Source: Cyanothece sp. BG0011 (lineage in GTDB: Bacteria > Cyanobacteriota > Cyanobacteriia > Cyanobacteriales > Microcystaceae). From it: a stretch of 51,178 nucleotides of DNA. The first letter of the stretch is position 1; every line of letters starts with the position of its first letter. The notes under the pieces are model-generated. The model made no database searches. It saw nothing but the letters and a program-made list of their open reading frames with translations, and had not been told where the DNA came from. Shown piece after piece: positions 7,257 to 14,991 of this stretch. The stretch covers positions 1-51,178 of the forward strand of contig NZ_PRLH01000141.1 of NCBI RefSeq assembly GCF_003013815.1. The letters run 5' to 3'. A program made the translations under genes and the position numbers.

Positions 7257-7592
7257 ATGGAGCAATCATTTAATAAAGTTCTCGTCTGGTTGAAAGGAGA
7301 AGTAAAAACACCGCCTTTTTCAAGTCAAGCTAGGATAGAAGTTGGCTATTTATTACGTCGATTACAACAAGGCAAATCTTTATCAATGCCTCAATCTCGT
7401 CCTATGCCTAGTATTGGTTCTCGTTGTCATGAATTGCGGATTAACGATAATGAACAGACATGGCGCATTATTTACCGAATTGACGAAGATGCGATCATTA
7501 TTGTAGATGTATTTGCTAAAAAGACTAACAAAACACCAGAAAATGTTATAAAACGTAGTCAACAACGATTAAAACAATATGACAATATCTAA
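7257..7592 (+). CDS. RelE/HigB-like toxin (phage Gp49-like, DUF891)
   Basis: 111 residues with the RelE/ParE-superfamily core: a two-helix start containing a GYLLRRLQQGK-type segment, then beta strands with the conserved block CHELRINDNEQTWRIIYR, and an IVDVFAKKT strand-turn motif before the C-terminal helix. This matches the phage-derived Gp49-like (DUF891) branch that includes HigB-type mRNA interferases. An XRE-family antitoxin begins 14 bp downstream on the same strand, the toxin-first order typical of higBA-like modules. mRNA cleavage is expected from the family and not demonstrated here. Confidence 0.85.
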   Translation: MEQSFNKVLVWLKGEVKTPPFSSQARIEVGYLLRRLQQGKSLSMPQSRPMPSIGSRCHELRINDNEQTWRIIYRIDEDAIIIVDVFAKKTNKTPENVIKRSQQRLKQYDNI

Positions 7593-7606
7593 GGAATAAA
7601 CCTATT

Positions 7607-7921
7607 ATGGATAACAATAAACGTCAAAAACTTGAGCAAGCTGGCTGGCAAGTAGGAACAGTATCTGAGTTTCTAGAATTGTCCCCATCTGAGTCACAAA
7701 TGATAGAGTTAAAATTAGCTTTAAGTCAACAGTTTAAATCATTAAGAGAACGTCAAAAACTTTCTCTACAAGCTTTAGCAGAAAAAATGCAATCGAGTCC
7801 ATCAAATGTGGCTAAAATTGAGGAAGGTGATTCTTCTGTGACCATTGATTTAATGATTCAAGGTTTATTTTCAATGGGAGCAACTTGTCAAGAAATTGCT
7901 AAAATAATGCTTGATTCTTAG
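7607..7921 (+). CDS. XRE-family antitoxin (HigA-like)
   Basis: 104 residues. The helix-turn-helix of the Xre/Cro type is visible at about residues 45-95: LRERQKLSLQALAEKMQSSPSNVAKIEEG, with the characteristic Gln-Ala-Leu-Ala turn and the Val-Ala-Lys-Ile-Glu recognition segment. The N-terminal 40 residues probably contact the toxin. It follows the toxin gene by 14 bp. By family analogy it neutralises the toxin and represses the shared promoter upstream of 7257. The 152 bp after it hold no gene on this strand. Confidence 0.85.
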   Translation: MDNNKRQKLEQAGWQVGTVSEFLELSPSESQMIELKLALSQQFKSLRERQKLSLQALAEKMQSSPSNVAKIEEGDSSVTIDLMIQGLFSMGATCQEIAKIMLDS

Positions 7922-8073: not shown

Positions 8074-8754
8074 TCAAATACGCAAAACATAACCCACTCC
8101 TCGAACAGTATGTATCAATCTTGAAGAGTGGTTTAGTTCTAATTTTAATCGCAAAGCCCGAATATAAACATCGACAATATTCGATTCTCCTGTATAGTAA
8201 TAACCCCAGACATTTTCAAGTATTTGATTTCTACTCAAGACATGAAGAGGATGTCGCAATAAATATTCTAAAAGGTCAAATTCTTTTGCCGTTAATTCAA
8301 TTGACTGCTTGGCTCTATAAACCTCCCTTGTGAGCAGATTCATGTGTAAATCTTCAAATTCCAAGGTTTCTGAGGAGTCAGTGTCAGTCCCTATACGACG
8401 CAGACGAGCTTTAGCTCTGGCTAAAAGTTCTTCCATGCTAAAAGGTTTCGTTACATAATCATCAGCACCACTATCTAAACCTAGAACTCGCTCTGTAATT
8501 TCGTCTCTTGCCGTCAGCATAATAATGGGGATTTTAACTCCCGTCTTTCTCAGGCGTAAACAAATATCTAATCCCGATATTCTAGGTAGCATCCAGTCTA
8601 AGATAATTAAATCAGGACAACATTCACGAGCTATATTAAGGGCATCTATACCATCATGAGAAACGGTCACTTTATATCCTTCGACGAGCAATTCTGAAGA
8701 AATAAACTGTGCGATTTTAGTATCATCTTCCACCACCAGAATATGTTCGCTCAT
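8074..8754 (-). CDS. OmpR/PhoB-family response regulator
   Basis: 226 residues from the chosen ATG. An in-frame ATG at 8769 is less likely: the stop TAA of the upstream kinase overlaps the ATG at 8754 as TAATG, a classic coupling arrangement. The receiver domain has the acidic pair Asp10-Asp11 (VVEDD), phosphoacceptor Asp53 (ILDWMLP) and the switch Lys in VTKPFS. The C-terminal winged-helix DNA-binding domain is typical (LTAKEFDLLEYLLRHP, then HTVRGVGYVLR). It resembles cyanobacterial ManR/RppA-type regulators; the signal cannot be assigned. Its targets may include the divergent thiol-redox genes starting at 11,096, which is inference from position only. Confidence 0.92.
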   Translation of the reverse strand: MSEHILVVEDDTKIAQFISSELLVEGYKVTVSHDGIDALNIARECCPDLIILDWMLPRISGLDICLRLRKTGVKIPIIMLTARDEITERVLGLDSGADDYVTKPFSMEELLARAKARLRRIGTDTDSSETLEFEDLHMNLLTREVYRAKQSIELTAKEFDLLEYLLRHPLHVLSRNQILENVWGYYYTGESNIVDVYIRALRLKLELNHSSRLIHTVRGVGYVLRI

Positions 8755-10206
8755 TAAGCTGTCCTCCATAAAGGTAAAGTAATGGTAAACATACTGCCTT
8801 CTTGGGGTTTTGAACGAAGGGTAATCTTTCCTCCCATTCCTTTGATCAAACTTTTAGCGATCGCTAATCCTAGCCCTGTACCATCACGGGAGCGAGTCAT
8901 CATCTCATCCACTCGATAAAATCGTTCAAAAATACGCTGTTGGTAGGCCAAACTAATCCCTACACCATAATCACGCACATGAATCATTGCTACATCAACG
9001 GTTTTTTTCTAAAATGATATCAACTGATTGAGGAGCGAAAGAGTATTTAAGAGCATTGTCGACTAAATTAATTAACACTTGTTGTAAACGATTTTGATCG
9101 GCATAAGTCACAACATCCTCATTCGTTATAATTAAATTTATTGAGCGATCAGTTACTTTCTGAGTCATTTCCACAACTTCTGTTACCACAGTATTTAACA
9201 TAATAGGACGACACCGAAAATGTAAGTGACCACTATCAGCACGAGCTAAGTCAAGCAAATCTTCCAACATCCGAATCGTTCTTTCTGTTTCTCCCGTTGC
9301 TGTTTCTAAGGCTTGAATTTGGTGGGGACTCAAATTATCCCCTTTTCTGAGAAGACTGCTTAAGTAACCAATGATAATAGTTAGAGGAGTTCGTAACTCA
9401 TGGGAAACATTGCCGACAAATTGGCGTTGTTGTTCCCATGAACCAGAAAGTCGAAATAACATATCATTAAAGGCTTGAGCTAATCCTAAAATTTCTTTTG
9501 GAGCTTCATTTAGTTTTAATCTTGCACCACCTAAATCCTCAGCGGATACGGTCATTGCCACCTTACTCATTTGTTTAAGGGGGCGTAAACTTCGACCAAT
9601 ACGATAACAAATCGCCACAATCAAAATTATAATTGTGGCAAGACTAATAACCAATAATCGCCAAATACTTAAATTTAGTTTTTGTTGGTCAACAGTAATA
9701 TCTTGAGATAAGTATAATTTGCCGAGGGAATTACCATTGACAATCAGAGGAGTTCCACATAAGACAATATCACGGCCATTAAATCTTACCACTTGAGGTT
9801 TTACCGGTACTCGATTCATTGCTTCTATGGCTTGAAATTCAGCCCCAGAATCATCTAAAGTCGAGGATTTTCCTATAAGTTTTCCTTGAGAATTTCTAAC
9901 CCATAGGACTAAGTTAGAAGTGGAAACTTTACTAATAGTTTTTTGGATTCGTGTTTCCCAAGATTCAGACTGTGTATCAAATTCAAGTTCTTCAGGAAAA
10001 CGCATCGCAATGTATTCTAAAGTTTGTTTATGGGCAGAAACTAAATTTTGCTCCATTTGCCATCCTGCCCAAAAAGTGATGCCACCCAATCCGATAACTA
10101 ACAAAACGACTAATTCCAAGGTTAATTGAAATTGAAGAGAAGAAGGGCCTATTTTAGTGATCTGAGAAAATTTGAGTTGATGATCCAATCTTTTAATGAA
10201 ATTCAT
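8754..10206 (-). pseudogene. Sensor histidine kinase interrupted by a one-base frameshift
   Basis: Two adjacent frames together encode a complete kinase of about 483 residues. The first frame (10206-8995) has TM1 at about 28-48, an extracytoplasmic sensor region of about 130 residues, TM2 at about 182-202, a HAMP-like linker, His269 in GNVSHELRTPL and the N-box NLVDNALKYS. It stops just after ILEKNR. The G1 and G2 ATP-lid boxes (VRDYGVGI, GTGLGLAIAKSL) continue in the next frame to 8754. Removing one A from the A7 run (T7 on the plus strand, 9002-9008) restores a seamless reading. As read, the product lacks the ATP-binding end and would be inactive; slippage at the homopolymer or a sequence error could rescue it. 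It lies 49 bp downstream of the cupin gene and is coupled to the response regulator. Confidence 0.85.
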
Positions 10207-10255: not shown

Positions 10256-10867
10256 TTAAAAATTTTGCGCTGTCCCTTGAATGGGATCAAACTCATATCG
10301 ACTATCAAAATCAGTTTCCCCATATAAATTAAAGCTAATCGTTGGTTCATTACCCATAGCTTCTATTTGGTGAATAGCTGATGGCATAAAACACAGAATA
10401 TCTCCAACAGTCAAGATTTGTTCTCCGACCTCTTGAATTTGATCAGGCAAATTAGGTTGAGGTGATCGCTTCCAAAACCTATTTTTTTCTACACCACTTA
10501 ATAAAGCAACTAATCCCCAACAACCATGATTATGAATCGGTGAAATTGTTCCCTGTTTCCAGGCAACTAATTGTATTGTTAAAGGAAATGAAGGCTCATC
10601 ATAGAGTGTCATGATATCCCAGCCAGTTGTCGGATTTGGCTCAAGCATTGACAATAAAAGCCAAGGAGAATCATTTAATAACTGTCTCACTAAAGGGACA
10701 ATTTTCCTTAAGCGTAAATAATCATCCTTTATCGTATCTAAAATATTTTCTAAGTCTGTTAAAAAACGATACAGGCGATAAGGTGAAAATTGTTCCTTCT
10801 CAGGCGTAATTGTATCAAGACAGTGGCAATGTCCGTCATTCTCAACTAACCAATCTGGCTCATTCAT
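10256..10867 (-). CDS. Cysteine-dioxygenase-like cupin
   Basis: From the ATG at 10867 the protein has 203 residues, typical of the family; an upstream ATG at 10993 adds 42 residues without family character, so the shorter form is preferred. The cupin iron ligands are visible as His112 and His114 in PIHNHGCWG and His166 in PSAIHQI. Tyr182 (NLYGETD) sits about where the catalytic tyrosine of cysteine dioxygenase lies. Known members oxidise cysteine or related thiols to sulfinates. The substrate here is not proven. It precedes the two-component pair on the same strand and is divergent, across 228 bp, from the thioredoxin/CcdA genes, which fits a thiol-related role. Confidence 0.75.
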   Translation of the reverse strand: MNEPDWLVENDGHCHCLDTITPEKEQFSPYRLYRFLTDLENILDTIKDDYLRLRKIVPLVRQLLNDSPWLLLSMLEPNPTTGWDIMTLYDEPSFPLTIQLVAWKQGTISPIHNHGCWGLVALLSGVEKNRFWKRSPQPNLPDQIQEVGEQILTVGDILCFMPSAIHQIEAMGNEPTISFNLYGETDFDSRYEFDPIQGTAQNF

Positions 10868-11095
10868 AAACAAAATCTCAAACTTTAATAATACTTTGAT
10901 TGTAGGATATGGAGTGATTGATAAAATTAGTGATAAATGAAAATACAATGAATTTTCTCTAAGAATTCTTCTAGACTTGCTGAAAGTCGTCATTAAATAT
11001 TTTAATTGAATCTAAATCTAAAATTCAGCTTCCCCTCATCTTGGCACTGTTTAATCAAAGTAGAGTTTGATTGAAAATAATGAGGAGATTTAACT

Positions 11096-11602
11096 ATGTT
11101 CCCAAAATCAACATCATTGTGGCTGAGTCTTTATTTAACTAGCGTTGTTATTCCCTTCTCTTTAGTTACCAATCATGAGAAGGTCTCTGCTTCTAACGAC
11201 GTTTCAACATCACAACTTCATGCTTGTGCAGGTAGCTCTCGTAGAAATGTCGGTGGACCGTTAGCCAGAGAATTACAAGGAAAACCCGTTGTTGTTGACA
11301 TTTACGCGAGTTGGTGTGCAGCTTGTAAAAATATTGCTCCTACCCTCTCTCAATTAAAACAACAATATCAAGGAAAGGCTTATTTTGTTGTCTTGGACGT
11401 GAGTGATCAAGCCAAAGCACGTCAAGCAGAAGCTAGGGCAAGACAGTTAGGTTTAGGAGACTTTTTTGCTCAGCATAAATCACAAACAGGGACTGTTACC
11501 ATTGTTGACCCTGCTAACGGTAATATCCTAACTCAGCATCGTAATAATAATAAATTGAGCGATTATACCTCCGTATTAGATGCTGCTATTTCTCAGAGAT
11601 AA
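11096..11602 (+). CDS. Exported thioredoxin-fold protein with CAAC active site
   Basis: 168 residues. A hydrophobic N-terminal segment (about residues 7-25) followed by an SAS-like site indicates export to the periplasm or thylakoid lumen. The thioredoxin domain runs from about residue 55; the active site is Trp73-Cys74-Ala-Ala-Cys77 in YASWCAACKN, and the fold continues through VVLDVSDQ and a cis-Pro region (TGTVTIVDP). A single CAG tripeptide (residues 44-46, HACAG) sits before the domain, echoing the array in the next gene. ATG at 11096 is preceded by an AGGAG-like site. First gene of the plus-strand run; the following paralog starts 110 bp downstream. Likely a reductant carrier supplied by CcdA. 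Confidence 0.88.
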   Translation: MFPKSTSLWLSLYLTSVVIPFSLVTNHEKVSASNDVSTSQLHACAGSSRRNVGGPLARELQGKPVVVDIYASWCAACKNIAPTLSQLKQQYQGKAYFVVLDVSDQAKARQAEARARQLGLGDFFAQHKSQTGTVTIVDPANGNILTQHRNNNKLSDYTSVLDAAISQR

Positions 11603-11712
11603 TTGACGTGAAATGTAGAATTCTGAGATTTCTGCCGAAATATTGTCTAGTTCAAACTTCTCTTTTATAACTTCCTCACACAACAAACATCATTTATTCA
11701 GGAATTTGTCCC

Positions 11713-12360
11713 ATGAAGATTAAATATTTTTCTTTATTTGCCATAGTTTCATTGTTAAGTGTAGGAACATTAACAGCTTGTGCTAATCCCTGTGCTGGAC
11801 AATCTACCTCAACCACAGCTAATCAGGTTACTCAAAATGACCCATGCGCTGGAAAAAATCCTTGTGCCGGGGCTAATCCCTGCGCTGGAAAAAACCCTTG
11901 TGCCGGGGCTAATCCCTGTGCTGGAAAAAACCCTTGTGCCGGGGCTAATCCCTGTGCTGGGAAAAACCCTTGTGCCGGGGCTAATCCCTGTGCTGGAAAA
12001 ACCAAAACGATTGGTGCATCTTTAGCCCAAGAATTGCAAGGAAAACCCGTTGTTGTTGATATTTATGCGAGTTGGTGTGCAGCTTGTAAAAATATTGCTC
12101 CAACCCTTGCACAACTAGAAAAAGATTACGCCGAATCCGTGAATTTTGTGGTTCTCAATGTTAGTGATCAATCTACCACGACTCAAGCCCAGACCAAAGC
12201 TAAAAAATTAGGGTTAGCTAAATTTCTGAAGGAAAACAAAACTCAAACTGGAATGTTAACCATTATTGATCCGGCGACGGGAGAAATTTTAGCCCAACAT
12301 CGCAATAATCCTAATATTGCAGACTATCAAACCGTTTTAGATAAAGCCATAAGTCAGTGA
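11713..12360 (+). CDS. Predicted lipoprotein: Cys-rich PCAG-repeat linker plus thioredoxin domain
   Basis: 215 residues. A signal peptide ends in a lipobox (LTAC) with Cys23 as the predicted lipid-modified residue. Ten Pro-Cys-Ala-Gly units follow: one at residues 25-29 and nine contiguous six-residue units at 43-96 alternating PCAGK and PCAGA. The thioredoxin domain begins near residue 100 with the active site Trp121-Cys122-Ala-Ala-Cys125. Its domain is clearly paralogous to the preceding gene: the GKPVVVDIYASWCAACKNIAPTL block is shared nearly whole, in the same order. The Cys array could bind metal, carry thiols or act as a spacer; none of these is shown. Next on the strand is ccdA, 99 bp later. 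Confidence 0.88.
   Translation: MKIKYFSLFAIVSLLSVGTLTACANPCAGQSTSTTANQVTQNDPCAGKNPCAGANPCAGKNPCAGANPCAGKNPCAGANPCAGKNPCAGANPCAGKTKTIGASLAQELQGKPVVVDIYASWCAACKNIAPTLAQLEKDYAESVNFVVLNVSDQSTTTQAQTKAKKLGLAKFLKENKTQTGMLTIIDPATGEILAQHRNNPNIADYQTVLDKAISQ
11839..12000 (+). repeat. In-frame tandem array encoding nine Cys-rich hexapeptides
   Basis: 162 bp coding for nine six-residue units of the form (N/D)PCAG(K/A). At DNA level the unit is about 36 bp (two hexapeptides, K-type then A-type) and the copies differ by only a few synonymous changes, so expansion is recent or homogenised. Copy number is likely to vary between strains. Confidence 0.9.
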
Positions 12361-12459
12361 GCTTTCGTCTCACTTTAATCATACAAGCTTCTGGCTTGTC
12401 CTGAGCCGGATGCTTGTTCGACACAGGATTAGTGTTTCGATAAGGATAAGGAGATTTTA

Positions 12460-13311
12460 ATGACCCAATTACAGAAACCACCACCGAAAAAGAAGAGTTT
12501 AGGCCGTCCTAAACGCTCAAAAAAATGGTTGTTTTATTTCGGATTAGGTTTACTGGCTTTAATTATTGTTGTCACCCTCGGTCCAGTCATCAGCCATCCC
12601 ATTGAGCAACTCATTTCCATTGTCGAAAACCAATATCAACAGTGGTTTGACCAGCAAGATACAGCCAATCCTTTTGTCTTATTGCCTTTAGCTTTTTTGG
12701 GAGGATTATTAGCCAGTGTATCCCCTTGTATCTTAGGCTTACTACCAGTTAATCTCAGCTATATCGGTACGCTCAAAATTAAATCCCGTTGGGATGCTTT
12801 TACTAAAGCCGGCTTATTTGTACTAGGAGCAGTCACAATTTTAAGCTTATTTGGTTTAGTTTCCTCCTTTGCTGGAGCAGTGATGGTAGATTACCGAGGC
12901 TATATCAATATTGTGGTCGGACTAATTATGGCTCTCATGGGCTTATGGTTAATGGGGATCATCAAAATACCCTTACCAGAAATGAGTGCTAATCTCCCCA
13001 AAGCCGGTCCTTATGGAGTCGGGTTAACCTTTGCTTTAATTAGTGGTCCTTGTGCTAGTCCTGTATTATTTGCTGTACTAACAGCAGCAGCAGCCACAGG
13101 TTCTCAAGTTTTAGGGACTCTGACGATGGTTAGCTACGCTCTCGGTTATACCATTCTAATTTTCTTGGCGAGTTTATTTACGGGATTAGCTAAACAAAGT
13201 AATAATCTGTTGAAGCATTCTGAAACCATTATTCGCTTCGGTAGTGTGGCCTTAATTATGACTGGTGCTTATTACTTATTCACAGGGACTCAATGGTTTT
13301 TGGGAGGTTAA
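12460..13311 (+). CDS. ccdA: CcdA/DsbD-type transmembrane thiol-electron transporter
   Basis: 283 residues. After a basic cytosolic N-terminus and a first hydrophobic segment (residues 25-45), the core has about six helices with the two conserved Cys-containing motifs of the CcdA/DsbD-beta family: SVSPCILGLLP and SGPCASPVLF, symmetrically placed in helices 1 and 4. These cysteines pass electrons from cytosolic thioredoxin to extracytoplasmic thioredoxin-like proteins, in cytochrome c biogenesis among other uses. Neighbours match the role exactly: two exported thioredoxins upstream and thioredoxin reductase 3 bp downstream. The extra N-terminal helix makes it longer than minimal CcdA. It starts at ATG 12460 after an AAGGAG site. 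Confidence 0.92.
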   Translation: MTQLQKPPPKKKSLGRPKRSKKWLFYFGLGLLALIIVVTLGPVISHPIEQLISIVENQYQQWFDQQDTANPFVLLPLAFLGGLLASVSPCILGLLPVNLSYIGTLKIKSRWDAFTKAGLFVLGAVTILSLFGLVSSFAGAVMVDYRGYINIVVGLIMALMGLWLMGIIKIPLPEMSANLPKAGPYGVGLTFALISGPCASPVLFAVLTAAAATGSQVLGTLTMVSYALGYTILIFLASLFTGLAKQSNNLLKHSETIIRFGSVALIMTGAYYLFTGTQWFLGG

Positions 13312-13314
13312 ATC

Positions 13315-14277
13315 ATGGTAGAAAATTTAGTGATTATTGGCTCTGGTCCGGCTGGTTATACGGCTGCAATTTATGCAGGTCGAGCGCAACTACAACCCCT
13401 TGTTTTTGAAGGTTTTAGTGCTGGTGGTGTCCCAGGAGGGCAATTGATGACGACGACAGAAGTAGAAAATTTCCCTGGTTTTGCTAAAGGGATTAGCGGA
13501 CCTCAATTAATGAAGGAAATGCGTCAACAGGCTTTACGGTGGGGGGCTAATTTAATCACCGAGGATGTGGTTAAAGTGGATTTTCGACAATACCCCTTTA
13601 TTGTGAGAGCCAATGAGAAGGAAGTGCGAACTTTTGGGGTGATTATTTGCACGGGTGCGACGGCTAAACGATTGCATATTTTAGGAGAAGATGAGTTTTG
13701 GAATAATGGGATCTCTGCTTGTGCGATTTGTGATGGTGCCAGTCCTTTATTTCTTAATGCTGAGGTGGCAGTGGTAGGTGGTGGCGATTCCGCCGCCGAA
13801 GAAGCCCTTTATTTGACGAAATACGCTACTAAAGTTCATTTATTAGTTAGACGAGAACAATTACGGGCTTCTAAAACTATGCAAGAACGTCTTTTTGCCC
13901 ATCCTCAAATTAAGATTCATTGGCATTCTATTCCCATTGCTGCTTATGGTGATGAAGTTTTACAAGAGGTTAAAGTCCAAAATGCGATCGCTCAAGAGGT
14001 TTGGCAGTTACCTGTTAATGGTTTATTTTATGCCATCGGTCATACTCCTAATACCCAATTGTTTCAAGGACAAATTGCTTTAGATGCTCGTGGTTACATT
14101 GAAACTAGGGGCAAAAGCACTGCTACCAATATCGAAGGAGTTTGGGCTGCTGGAGACGTGCAAGATTCCTATTACCGCCAAGCTATTACCGCCGCCGGAA
14201 CTGGTTGTATGGCTGCTTTAGAAGCGGAACGTTGGTTATCAGAAAGGAAATCTTTGAGGTTTCTTTCAGCCGCTTAA
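13315..14277 (+). CDS. trxB: Thioredoxin-disulfide reductase (NADPH)
   Basis: 320 residues, standard for low-molecular-weight TrxB. FAD-binding motif [16 protein letters not shown] at the N-terminus, redox pair Cys136-Ala-Ile-Cys139-Asp, NADPH-binding [11 protein letters not shown] with the downstream RREQLRA block typical of NADPH specificity, and the C-terminal FAD block [14 protein letters not shown]. Start is 3 bp after the ccdA stop, so translation is probably coupled. Together with the following thioredoxin it would supply electrons to CcdA. Some cyanobacteria rely mainly on ferredoxin-thioredoxin reductase, so an NADPH-linked reductase dedicated to this locus is informative. Confidence 0.95.
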
Positions 14278-14325
14278 TTTAAAGGTTTTTTAGCTCAATC
14301 TATCAAATTTATGGAGGAAATGATG

Positions 14326-14634
14326 ATGACTAATTCTAATTTATTATCCCAATTACAACAGGAATCAACTAAACCTATTTTGGTCAAATTTGTTGCTCCC
14401 CATTGTCCCTCTTGTGAAACCCTTACTCCTGTTTTAGAGCAGTTAGCAGATGATCATCCTGATGATTTTCATTTAGTCACCATTGACATGACAGAAGACC
14501 CTGAATTAGCCATGAAATTAAAGGTCAGAAGTGCGCCAACAGTTGTCTTATTCCAAGGGGAAGAAGTCAAGGAAAAAATAGCAGGATTGAAGCCCAAAAA
14601 ATTCTATGAAGCTTTAATTGAGAAAACGGCTTAA
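14326..14634 (+). CDS. Cytosolic thioredoxin-like protein with CPSC active site
   Basis: About 102 residues from ATG 14326. GGAGGAA at 14313-14319 is a good ribosome site for the ATG at 14323 or 14326, so the ATG at 14311, which precedes it, is unlikely. No signal peptide. The active site is CPSC (APHCPSCETL) in place of the usual WCGPC, and the fold is otherwise ordinary: LVTIDMTEDPELAMKLKVRSAPTVVLF with cis-Pro76-like context. It lies 48 bp after trxB. Likely the cytosolic carrier linking TrxB to CcdA. The substitution of Trp by His before the first Cys would shift its redox properties. Confidence 0.9.
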   Translation: MTNSNLLSQLQQESTKPILVKFVAPHCPSCETLTPVLEQLADDHPDDFHLVTIDMTEDPELAMKLKVRSAPTVVLFQGEEVKEKIAGLKPKKFYEALIEKTA

Positions 14635-14640
14635 AGATCA

Positions 14641-14991
14641 ATGAATAAAAGGAAGAAAATCATTACTATTACCCATGCTCGTACAGGGGAATTAATTGCA
14701 AAGGGTGAAGAAGGATGGGGTTTTATGCCCTTTGAGGGTAATTATTACATCCGTGCAAAGTATATCAAAACCCAAGGGTTTCAATTTACCTTAATTCCGG
14801 GATTTTGTATTTACAAATTTCTCTATATTTGGTTAAATCTGAAAGTTAAAGGTAAAACCGAGAAATTTATTGCTTGGATGTATGTAATACCTAATCCCCT
14901 ACTTCCTTTTATCTGGTTTCGCATTGCTTTACCTCGAAATCATCCTTGTTTAAGAGTTGATATACAAACATTATATTACCTGAACATTTAG
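14641..14991 (+). CDS. DUF427-family protein
   Basis: 116 residues. The THARTGELIAKGEEG opening and the PFEGNYYIRAKY block match DUF427, a small beta-rich domain of unknown function. The C-terminal half continues with LPNPLLPFIWFR-like sequence seen in cyanobacterial members; the last dozen residues are divergent. No signal peptide. The start is 6 bp after the thioredoxin stop, so it may be co-transcribed with the redox genes, though no link of DUF427 to thiol chemistry is known to me. Confidence 0.75.
   Translation: MNKRKKIITITHARTGELIAKGEEGWGFMPFEGNYYIRAKYIKTQGFQFTLIPGFCIYKFLYIWLNLKVKGKTEKFIAWMYVIPNPLLPFIWFRIALPRNHPCLRVDIQTLYYLNI

Follow-up and report, generated by a model that had tools for sequence, protein, structure and literature searches.

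Where would the electrons of a thioredoxin system go when its genes lie next to a membrane thiol carrier and two exported thioredoxin-fold proteins? This question is raised by a gene cluster of Cyanothece sp. BG0011 (contig NZ_PRLH01000141.1, positions 1 to 51,178, referred to below as the window), which encodes the exported proteins T1 and T2, a CcdA paralogue (CcdA2), a thioredoxin reductase (TrxB) and a TrxE-type thioredoxin, with a cupin and a two-component system on the opposite strand. The original prediction, made from the sequence alone, had read these genes as a complete path from NADPH to the envelope. The open reading frames (ORFs) of the window and their Pfam and NCBIfam matches bear out its gene list, with the five plus-strand genes and the opposite cupin all in place; the two-component system is present as well, but at 8074-10206, outside the span 10256-14634 that had been drawn around the cluster.

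We propose that the cluster is an inducible envelope thiol/metal defence cassette, in which exported Cys-rich proteins would be recharged by a chain of NADPH, NADPH-thioredoxin reductase (NTR1), TrxE and CcdA2, and we give this reading a probability of roughly 0.55. Its observed basis is gene linkage, conserved cysteines, an absent cis-proline, upstream motifs and the exchange of regulators; what we infer is which way electrons pass through CcdA2, which metal or oxidant is the target, what the sensor binds and what the cupin acts on. Exported proteins with clustered cysteines (PCAG arrays and/or thioredoxin folds without cis-proline) would act outside the cytoplasm, binding thiophilic metal(loid)s or oxidants or neutralising them chemically. 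If such a protein has a thioredoxin domain, a dedicated chain would recharge its dithiols, with electrons passing from NADPH to NTR1 (TrxB), to TrxE, through CcdA2 across the membrane and on to the exported protein. The inducing switch may be a membrane sensor that has a conserved cysteine on its extracytoplasmic side, a histidine kinase with its response regulator (HK/RR) in the window and an extracytoplasmic function (ECF) sigma factor with an RskA-type anti-sigma factor elsewhere. The cupin, a predicted cytosolic thiol dioxygenase encoded directly beside the kinase, appears to be the steady genetic partner of the Cys array.

Conserved linkage of T and CcdA2

We denote as T the exported thioredoxin-fold proteins of the kind found in the window, and surveyed 195 genomes of the same order; the adjacency counts and Fisher P values take no account of phylogeny. 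A CcdA match is found in at least 194 of these genomes. Among the matches listed, the close form CcdA2 (47-100% identity) accounts for 59 loci in 53 genomes and the next full-length CcdA matches reach at most 38% identity; short fragments (67 residues at 81% in G129, and a second short CcdA piece in L038/L115) were left out of the count. T proteins are encoded by 55 genes in 39 of the 195 genomes, and every one of these genomes carries CcdA2 (39/39 among the matches listed; Fisher P = 1.4e-29, kinship ignored). CcdA2 is at most 3 kb away from 50 of the 55 T genes; four of the remaining five are within 1 kb of a cupin gene, and the fifth belongs to the fragmented genome G164, where it sits on a different contig. 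The test of conserved adjacency that had been suggested with the prediction, once run, returns a module that is both recurrent and specific.

Two sets of loci were compared, comprising 58 CcdA2 loci from the 195-genome sample (the window apart) and a second set of 80, which is not independent of the first because 14 of 15 groups of identical CcdA2 C-termini are common to both. T lies upstream of CcdA2 in 37 loci of the first set and 68 of the second, and another thioredoxin, which we take from its motif to be VKOR-type, in 16 and 9; neither is seen in 5 (three of which are no more than 230 bp from where a contig begins) and 3. Within 2.5 kb upstream, T or the VKOR-type thioredoxin is present in 53/58 and 77/80 loci. 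In a tree of the CcdA2 proteins of the 195 genomes, the T-type sequences (38 rows and one contig-end row) form one group with support of 100/98.

The second CcdA2 branch (L145-L148, L150, L151, L154-L157, L160-L164, L166) pairs with the VKOR-type exported thioredoxin, not with T, and lacks genes for a cupin, a sensor or metals up to a distance of 8 kb. A T-CcdA2 pair of cyanobacterial type is also carried by L086, a record titled Candidatus Gracilibacteria, which is probably a mis-binned contig.

An exported thioredoxin fold without cis-proline

The active-site cysteines of T are conserved in 143/143 and 142/143 proteins for the two positions, and no proline is found at or around the cis-proline site in any of the 143, the cis-proline of TrxE aligning to Gly132 of T. 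ORFs of fewer than 110 residues were not taken into this alignment, and a motif filter kept out three proteins in which a Cys array is joined to a YHS domain. An exported CxxC partner that keeps the cis-proline of thioredoxin or TlpA, as expected for a CcdA pathway, is seen in 0/143. The two predicted exported thioredoxins are therefore not ordinary thioredoxins. In human TRX1, mutants with Ser, Thr or Ala in place of the cis-proline take up a [2Fe-2S] cluster, as reported in the part of the paper covered here (PMC6210436); the loss of cis-proline in T would be a change known to permit metal binding, and T offers a natural family in which such binding is directly testable. Three T proteins (L049 5726, L053 1711 and L082 2821) miss the [WFY]CxxC pattern, the Cys columns being otherwise near-invariant.

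Cys arrays and the thiol-dioxygenase cupin

T2 of the window contains 13 cysteines and 10 PCAG units. Searching the 195 genomes with a DNA pattern that encodes one array spelling, PCAxKNPCA, we obtained 53 matches, distributed over 16 genomes; the reversed control matched nowhere. All 53 lie in or near T/CcdA2 genes or, in seven genomes without T, beside the cupin (distances were measured for 32, the outer ones of each cluster, and the others fall between them). We fetched nearly all cupin loci, leaving out ORFs below 90 residues, duplicates with the same last 80 residues and two fragments of G111, and counted as an array any ORF with at least three PC[AGS] units, which misses other spellings. 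An array lies within 3 kb of 41 of the 122 distinct cupins and is divergent from the cupin in 41/41; 18 of these arrays stand alone, 15 are joined to a thioredoxin fold and 8 to a YHS domain. Cupins at least 50% identical to that of the window have an array nearby in 36 of 55 cases, against 5 of the 67 others (P = 6e-12), and 26 fetched CcdA2 loci without a cupin (L145-L170, 405 kb) contain no array. Judged from these sequences, the PCAG array is a separate module, occurring alone or fused to thioredoxin or YHS domains.

Comparison of five array proteins with NCBIfam gave no match for three, a match through the YHS domain for one and two weak matches below cut-off for the last; the array-alone protein of L226 has no Pfam match. 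Fusions with a YHS domain occur in L081 (8973-9602), L082, L136, L173, L176, L189 and L229-L233, and in four cupin loci (L189, L229, L230 and L233) the gene for the arsenosugar radical SAM protein ArsS is next to, or one gene from, the array-YHS gene. Plasmid pAQ7 of PCC 7002 (L224, 2458-6335) carries a cupin-HK-RR cassette that diverges from an ORF for a stand-alone Cys-array lipoprotein and from a MauE-like gene. This cassette, which has the ergothioneine genes egtB/egtD within 5 kb, is a tractable model. The array ORF is missing from the PLSDB table, which lists an opposite-strand ORF of the same stretch.

Cupin matches occur in 106 of the 195 genomes. His154 and His156 are invariant and His208 nearly so, as expected for an HxH motif with a distal histidine; profile searches return 3-mercaptopropionate dioxygenase (1.6e-14), mercaptosuccinate dioxygenase and cysteine dioxygenase (CDO), and the 50 PDB matches listed for an AlphaFold2 model (predicted local distance difference test, pLDDT, 83.6) are all thiol dioxygenases. 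These three lines of evidence agree with the cysteine-dioxygenase ligands that had been predicted. The cupin of the window has no Pfam match, and one relative reaches 11.8 bits against a CDO_I cut-off of 23. The ORF at 10256-10993 is present as described, but the protein probably starts near 10867, at a Met where most relatives begin. The proposed tie of the cupin to the electron path is not supported, its steady partners being instead the Cys-array gene and the kinase, which lies on the same strand within 500 bp in 33 of 33 fetched loci that have both. Of 19 loci with both a cupin and an anti-sigma gene, 11 have the two on the same strand and no more than 1.2 kb apart. A group of unassigned thiol-dioxygenase cupins would in this way be linked to exported Cys-array proteins.

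Exchange of regulators on one module

Many T loci carry HK/RR genes or, instead, genes for an ECF sigma factor and an RskA-type anti-sigma factor. One extracytoplasmic cysteine is common to 37 of 37 module kinases and is found in 0/13 other kinases, in an alignment that is gappy at that column; the anti-sigma factors also share one cysteine (92% of 25). An 11-nt direct-repeat box, TTCATCTnAnACTCATnTT, lies upstream of T, matching at least 13 of 16 consensus positions in 29/33 kinase loci, a figure that is partly built in because the consensus was drawn from kinase loci, and, without this reservation, in 0/31 sigma loci, 19/40 other loci and 1/104 shuffles that preserved base composition only. 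A different motif, TAAATCC, is found upstream of T in 31/33 sigma loci versus 7/72 other loci, and is accompanied by TCGTCTTA in 17 of the 33. For the box, any kinase- or regulator-like gene within the stretch fetched decided the class of a locus, kinases taking precedence (31 sigma loci); for TAAATCC, sigma genes took precedence (33 sigma loci). These patterns show that regulators are exchanged on the same output module, each with its own upstream motif and conserved extracytoplasmic cysteine. The exchange offers two separate ways to get at the inducing signal; one of the two is on pAQ7 of Picosynechococcus sp. PCC 7002.

In G113, G130 and G183, whose kinase gene is about 15 kb distant or on a different contig, the T-CcdA2 promoters still have the box. 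Allowing 0-1 mismatch, its pattern gives ten matches in 16 chosen genomes, eight at T promoters and two elsewhere. The latter, G090:C1:5068593 and G090:C3:396647, each have one mismatch and are possible extra targets. A wider regulon of the response regulator is not claimed, since in several genomes the reversed-pattern control equals or exceeds the pattern once two mismatches are allowed.

The sensor pair had been predicted correctly as far as the presence of HK and RR genes goes, but the window's own kinase frame is broken at a 7-base homopolymer (8981-9015), through either a genuine frameshift or an error of the draft assembly; in 29 relatives (430-560 residues) the frame is long and unbroken. 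The best NCBIfam model for the kinase, with the N-terminal piece alone scanned, is TIGR01386 (heavy-metal sensor kinase), at 157 bits against a cut-off of 292.

The proposed electron path

CcdA2 is a DsbD_TM membrane protein with one cysteine in each of two membrane segments, as in CcdA-type carriers, and these residues, Cys90 and Cys198, are kept in 140 of 140 relatives. The active-site cysteines of TrxE are likewise kept in 16 of 16 aligned sequences. Each of the 15 best TrxE matches in the 195 genomes (134-191 bits) has a CcdA2 no more than 1.4 kb away, as judged by comparing coordinates by eye, and the next matches listed (112.6 bits and below) are mostly in frames of about 460 residues, the size of NTRC. 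TrxB is the sole NTR homologue found in the genome of the window. It has CxxC, FAD and NADPH motifs and adjoins a thioredoxin with an xCPSC active site (YCPSC in the published protein, HCPSC here), so that the two look like the published NTR1/TrxE pair, Anabaena Alr2204/Alr2205; the label NTR1 is given because the adjacent thioredoxin is TrxE-type. The predicted path from NADPH to the envelope thus stands in part, since the carriers keep their active-site cysteines and the pair resembles NTR1/TrxE, whereas only a minority of loci unite the whole path in one cluster.

In the parts of the literature covered, NTR1/TrxE draws its electrons from NADPH, and NTR or NTRC, but not ferredoxin-thioredoxin reductase, reduces Alr2205 (PMC7242069, PMC9025218). 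Two WCXXC thioredoxin-like genes upstream of Anabaena NTR, conserved in several cyanobacteria, are described in the covered part of PMC7242069, and that of PMC9025218 gives the pair its name and mentions 'PDI' proteins among its neighbours. CcdA has no occurrence in the text of either paper, and the array, the cupin, the regulators and a transmembrane role for the pair were not met in the parts covered. The absence of any nameable dedicated assembly, as claimed in the prediction, holds for the remainder of the cassette, of which no description was found in the titles and abstract openings of open PubMed Central (PMC) papers; the NTR1/TrxE part is already published. This orphan pair would gain a likely destination in the envelope, through CcdA2.

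Possible links to metals

Metal(loid) genes, counted as MerA-like, ArsM, ArsS, CopZ, MerF or YHS genes within 8 kb, are found near 8/37 and 14/68 T loci versus 0/16 and 0/9 loci with the VKOR-type thioredoxin (P = 0.09 in the unselected sample alone and 0.007 pooled, the samples overlapping), and we consider the link of the cassette to metals moderate. MerF is above cut-off in two loci, a CopZ-type FeS metallochaperone also exceeds its cut-off, and the neighbours of a plasmid cassette of Pseudanabaena galeata include TVP38, an ArsR gene and a 'mercuric reductase'. The Anabaena TrxE, Alr2205, is cited in the covered part of PMC12830090 as countering heavy metals and H2O2 (Banerjee 2023).

Alternative explanations

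Several findings weigh against the proposed defence cassette. TrxE lies within 3 kb downstream in just 13/33 and 23/60 T loci and TrxB in just 10/33 and 16/60; other donors must therefore serve where NTR1/TrxE is missing, that is, in most T loci. No PCA unit at all is present in 48 of 143 T proteins, and 81 of 122 cupins have no array nearby. To these are added the frameshift in the kinase gene of the window, the partly circular count of the box in kinase loci and the metal enrichment, which is not significant in the unselected sample alone. The MerA-like FAD neighbours were rejected as mercuric reductases, since the C-terminal vicinal Cys pair, which we take to be the mark of the classical enzyme, is found in 0/11.

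Chance adjacency of common redox genes, to which the known family of every part might point, is practically negligible in view of the conserved linkage of T and of TrxE with CcdA2 and of the array-pattern and array-cupin counts. CcdA2 could also serve cytochrome c or b6f assembly, like chloroplast CCDA/HCF164, with its neighbours incidental; the DsbD_TM family to which it belongs is annotated for cytochrome c biogenesis. We judge this very improbable. CcdA2 is probably not the cytochrome-c copy because a separate CcdA, the second DsbD_TM protein of the genome, is encoded directly before ResB, and the role in cytochrome c assembly alone that had been named beforehand as a refutation finds no support here. 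Furthermore, CcdA2 is present in 53 of 194 CcdA-bearing genomes, so that 141 manage with other forms (among the matches listed), and its own neighbours are T, TrxE and NTR1. An assignment to general envelope disulfide repair or peroxide scavenging, similar to ScsB-TlpA-PprX, in which T would reduce envelope proteins or a peroxiredoxin and the arrays would be a thiol buffer, appears rather unlikely to us. It would account for a carrier of the CcdA/DsbD family with an exported thioredoxin fold, for AhpC/TSA-like genes near 5/37 and 6/68 T loci, and for Alr2205 being called a partner of 2-Cys peroxiredoxin in the title of a reference in PMC12830090, in the part covered. The absent cis-proline, however, argues against ordinary disulfide reductase work, the arrays also occur alone or with YHS domains where CcdA2 is absent, and metal(loid) genes recur near T loci.

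The remaining alternatives concern the cupin. It may be an ordinary free-thiol dioxygenase that tunes cysteine and small-thiol pools during synthesis of Cys-rich proteins, with sensor and array responding to cytosolic or imported thiols. We consider this unlikely but a serious possibility: the fold and His ligands are those of thiol dioxygenases, the cassette of PCC 7002 has ergothioneine genes close by, and most cupins have no array nearby. However, wherever the array is present it is always the divergent neighbour, and a more specific link is therefore suggested. Bufferins (BufA) are short exported Cys-repeat proteins encoded beside MNIO, a metal-dependent oxygenase-type enzyme. By analogy, the Cys-array protein might be a lipoprotein of ribosomal origin that serves as a metallophore or resembles metallothionein, with the cupin as its maturase, a thiol dioxygenase acting on array cysteines before export as MNIO does on bufferins; the window would have a version with the array fused to a metal-binding thioredoxin fold and recharged via CcdA2. 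We regard this reading as doubtful.

Relation to known systems

The cassette proposed here shares parts with several known systems. Like the CcdA/ScsB/DsbD pathways (ScsB-TlpA-PprX, ScsABCD and chloroplast CCDA-HCF164), it combines a DsbD_TM carrier with an exported thioredoxin-fold partner, as described in the covered parts of PMC5403849 and PMC3842002; unlike in these, the partner lacks cis-proline and often has a Cys array, NTR1/TrxE is present in some loci, and a cupin and exchanged sensors are added. It differs from the bufferins in that the enzyme is a cupin and not MNIO, and the array is not BufA. Bufferin membership was rejected: the BufA2 family of bufferin-type metallophores is present in NCBIfam, and 0/5 array proteins scanned are above a BufA cut-off (one weak match, 16.9 bits versus 60), T2 has no BufA match, and MNIO (PF05114) has no match in the window's genome, the sole genome searched. 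The cupin has the fold and His ligands of the bacterial thiol dioxygenases (3MDO, MSDO and CDO), but the window protein has no Pfam match, and the family is linked to arrays and kinases. The best model for the kinase is that of heavy-metal sensors such as those of the CopRS/CztRS two-component systems; the N-terminal piece that was scanned scores below the cut-off, and the kinase has a single conserved extracytoplasmic cysteine and other target genes. The titles and abstract openings of open PMC papers contained none on CcdA2 with these partners, on the array-cupin link or on the regulator boxes. What is new here is T without cis-proline, the separate PCAG module divergent from the cupin, and the exchange of regulators with their own motifs.

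Features of the window and neighbouring genes

Table 1. Coordinates of the cassette and adjoining features in the window
Feature	Position	Strand	Basis
OmpR-type response regulator	8074..8769	-	Pfam Response_reg and Trans_reg_C; adjoins HK and cupin in many relatives
C-terminal (ATPase) piece of the histidine kinase, split off by frameshift	8754..8987	-	HATPase_c 67 bits
N-terminal piece of the histidine kinase, with HAMP, HisKA and, flanked by two hydrophobic stretches (by eye), an extracytoplasmic domain	8995..10206	-	Pfam
Codon of kinase Cys150, in presumed extracytoplasmic domain	9757..9759	-	Kinase alignment
Thiol-dioxygenase-family cupin (CUP), probable extent; ORF 10256-10993	10256..10867	-	Profile matches, AlphaFold2 model, His conservation
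Degenerate copy of the candidate response-regulator box (11-nt direct repeat), 54 bp upstream of T1	11024..11042	+	13/16 consensus positions
T1, exported thioredoxin-fold protein, WCAAC, without cis-proline	11096..11602	+	
T2, Cys-array thioredoxin-fold lipoprotein, lipobox LTAC (by eye), 10 PCAG, WCAAC, without cis-proline	11713..12360	+	Pfam Thioredoxin 47 bits; Cys counts
Tandem repeat encoding the PCAG array, 36 bp x 4.3	11848..12001	+	TRF score 287
CcdA2, putative thiol electron carrier of the membrane; its paralogue lies beside ResB	12460..13311	+	DsbD_TM 48 bits, cut-off 27; Cys90 and Cys198
NADPH-thioredoxin reductase (TrxB), NTR1-type by neighbour	13315..14277	+	TIGR01292 380 bits, cut-off 343; CAIC, GGGDSA, VRREQLR
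TrxE-type cytosolic thioredoxin, HCPSC active site, cis-proline kept	14311..14634	+	Pfam Thioredoxin 72 bits; alignment
Small protein, recurs beside CcdA2/NTR1/TrxE in a few loci	14641..14991	+	Homologues in L041 (same genome as L118), L085 and L117

The small protein at the end of the table has no match in Pfam or NCBIfam. An NrtS nitrate/nitrite transporter gene lies between the anti-sigma gene and the cupin in L033, L034, L037, L042 and others, and near TrxE in L041, L066 and L069. At 7257-7921 of the window, two small genes resemble, by eye, a RelE/HigB-type toxin and helix-turn-helix (HTH) antitoxin pair.

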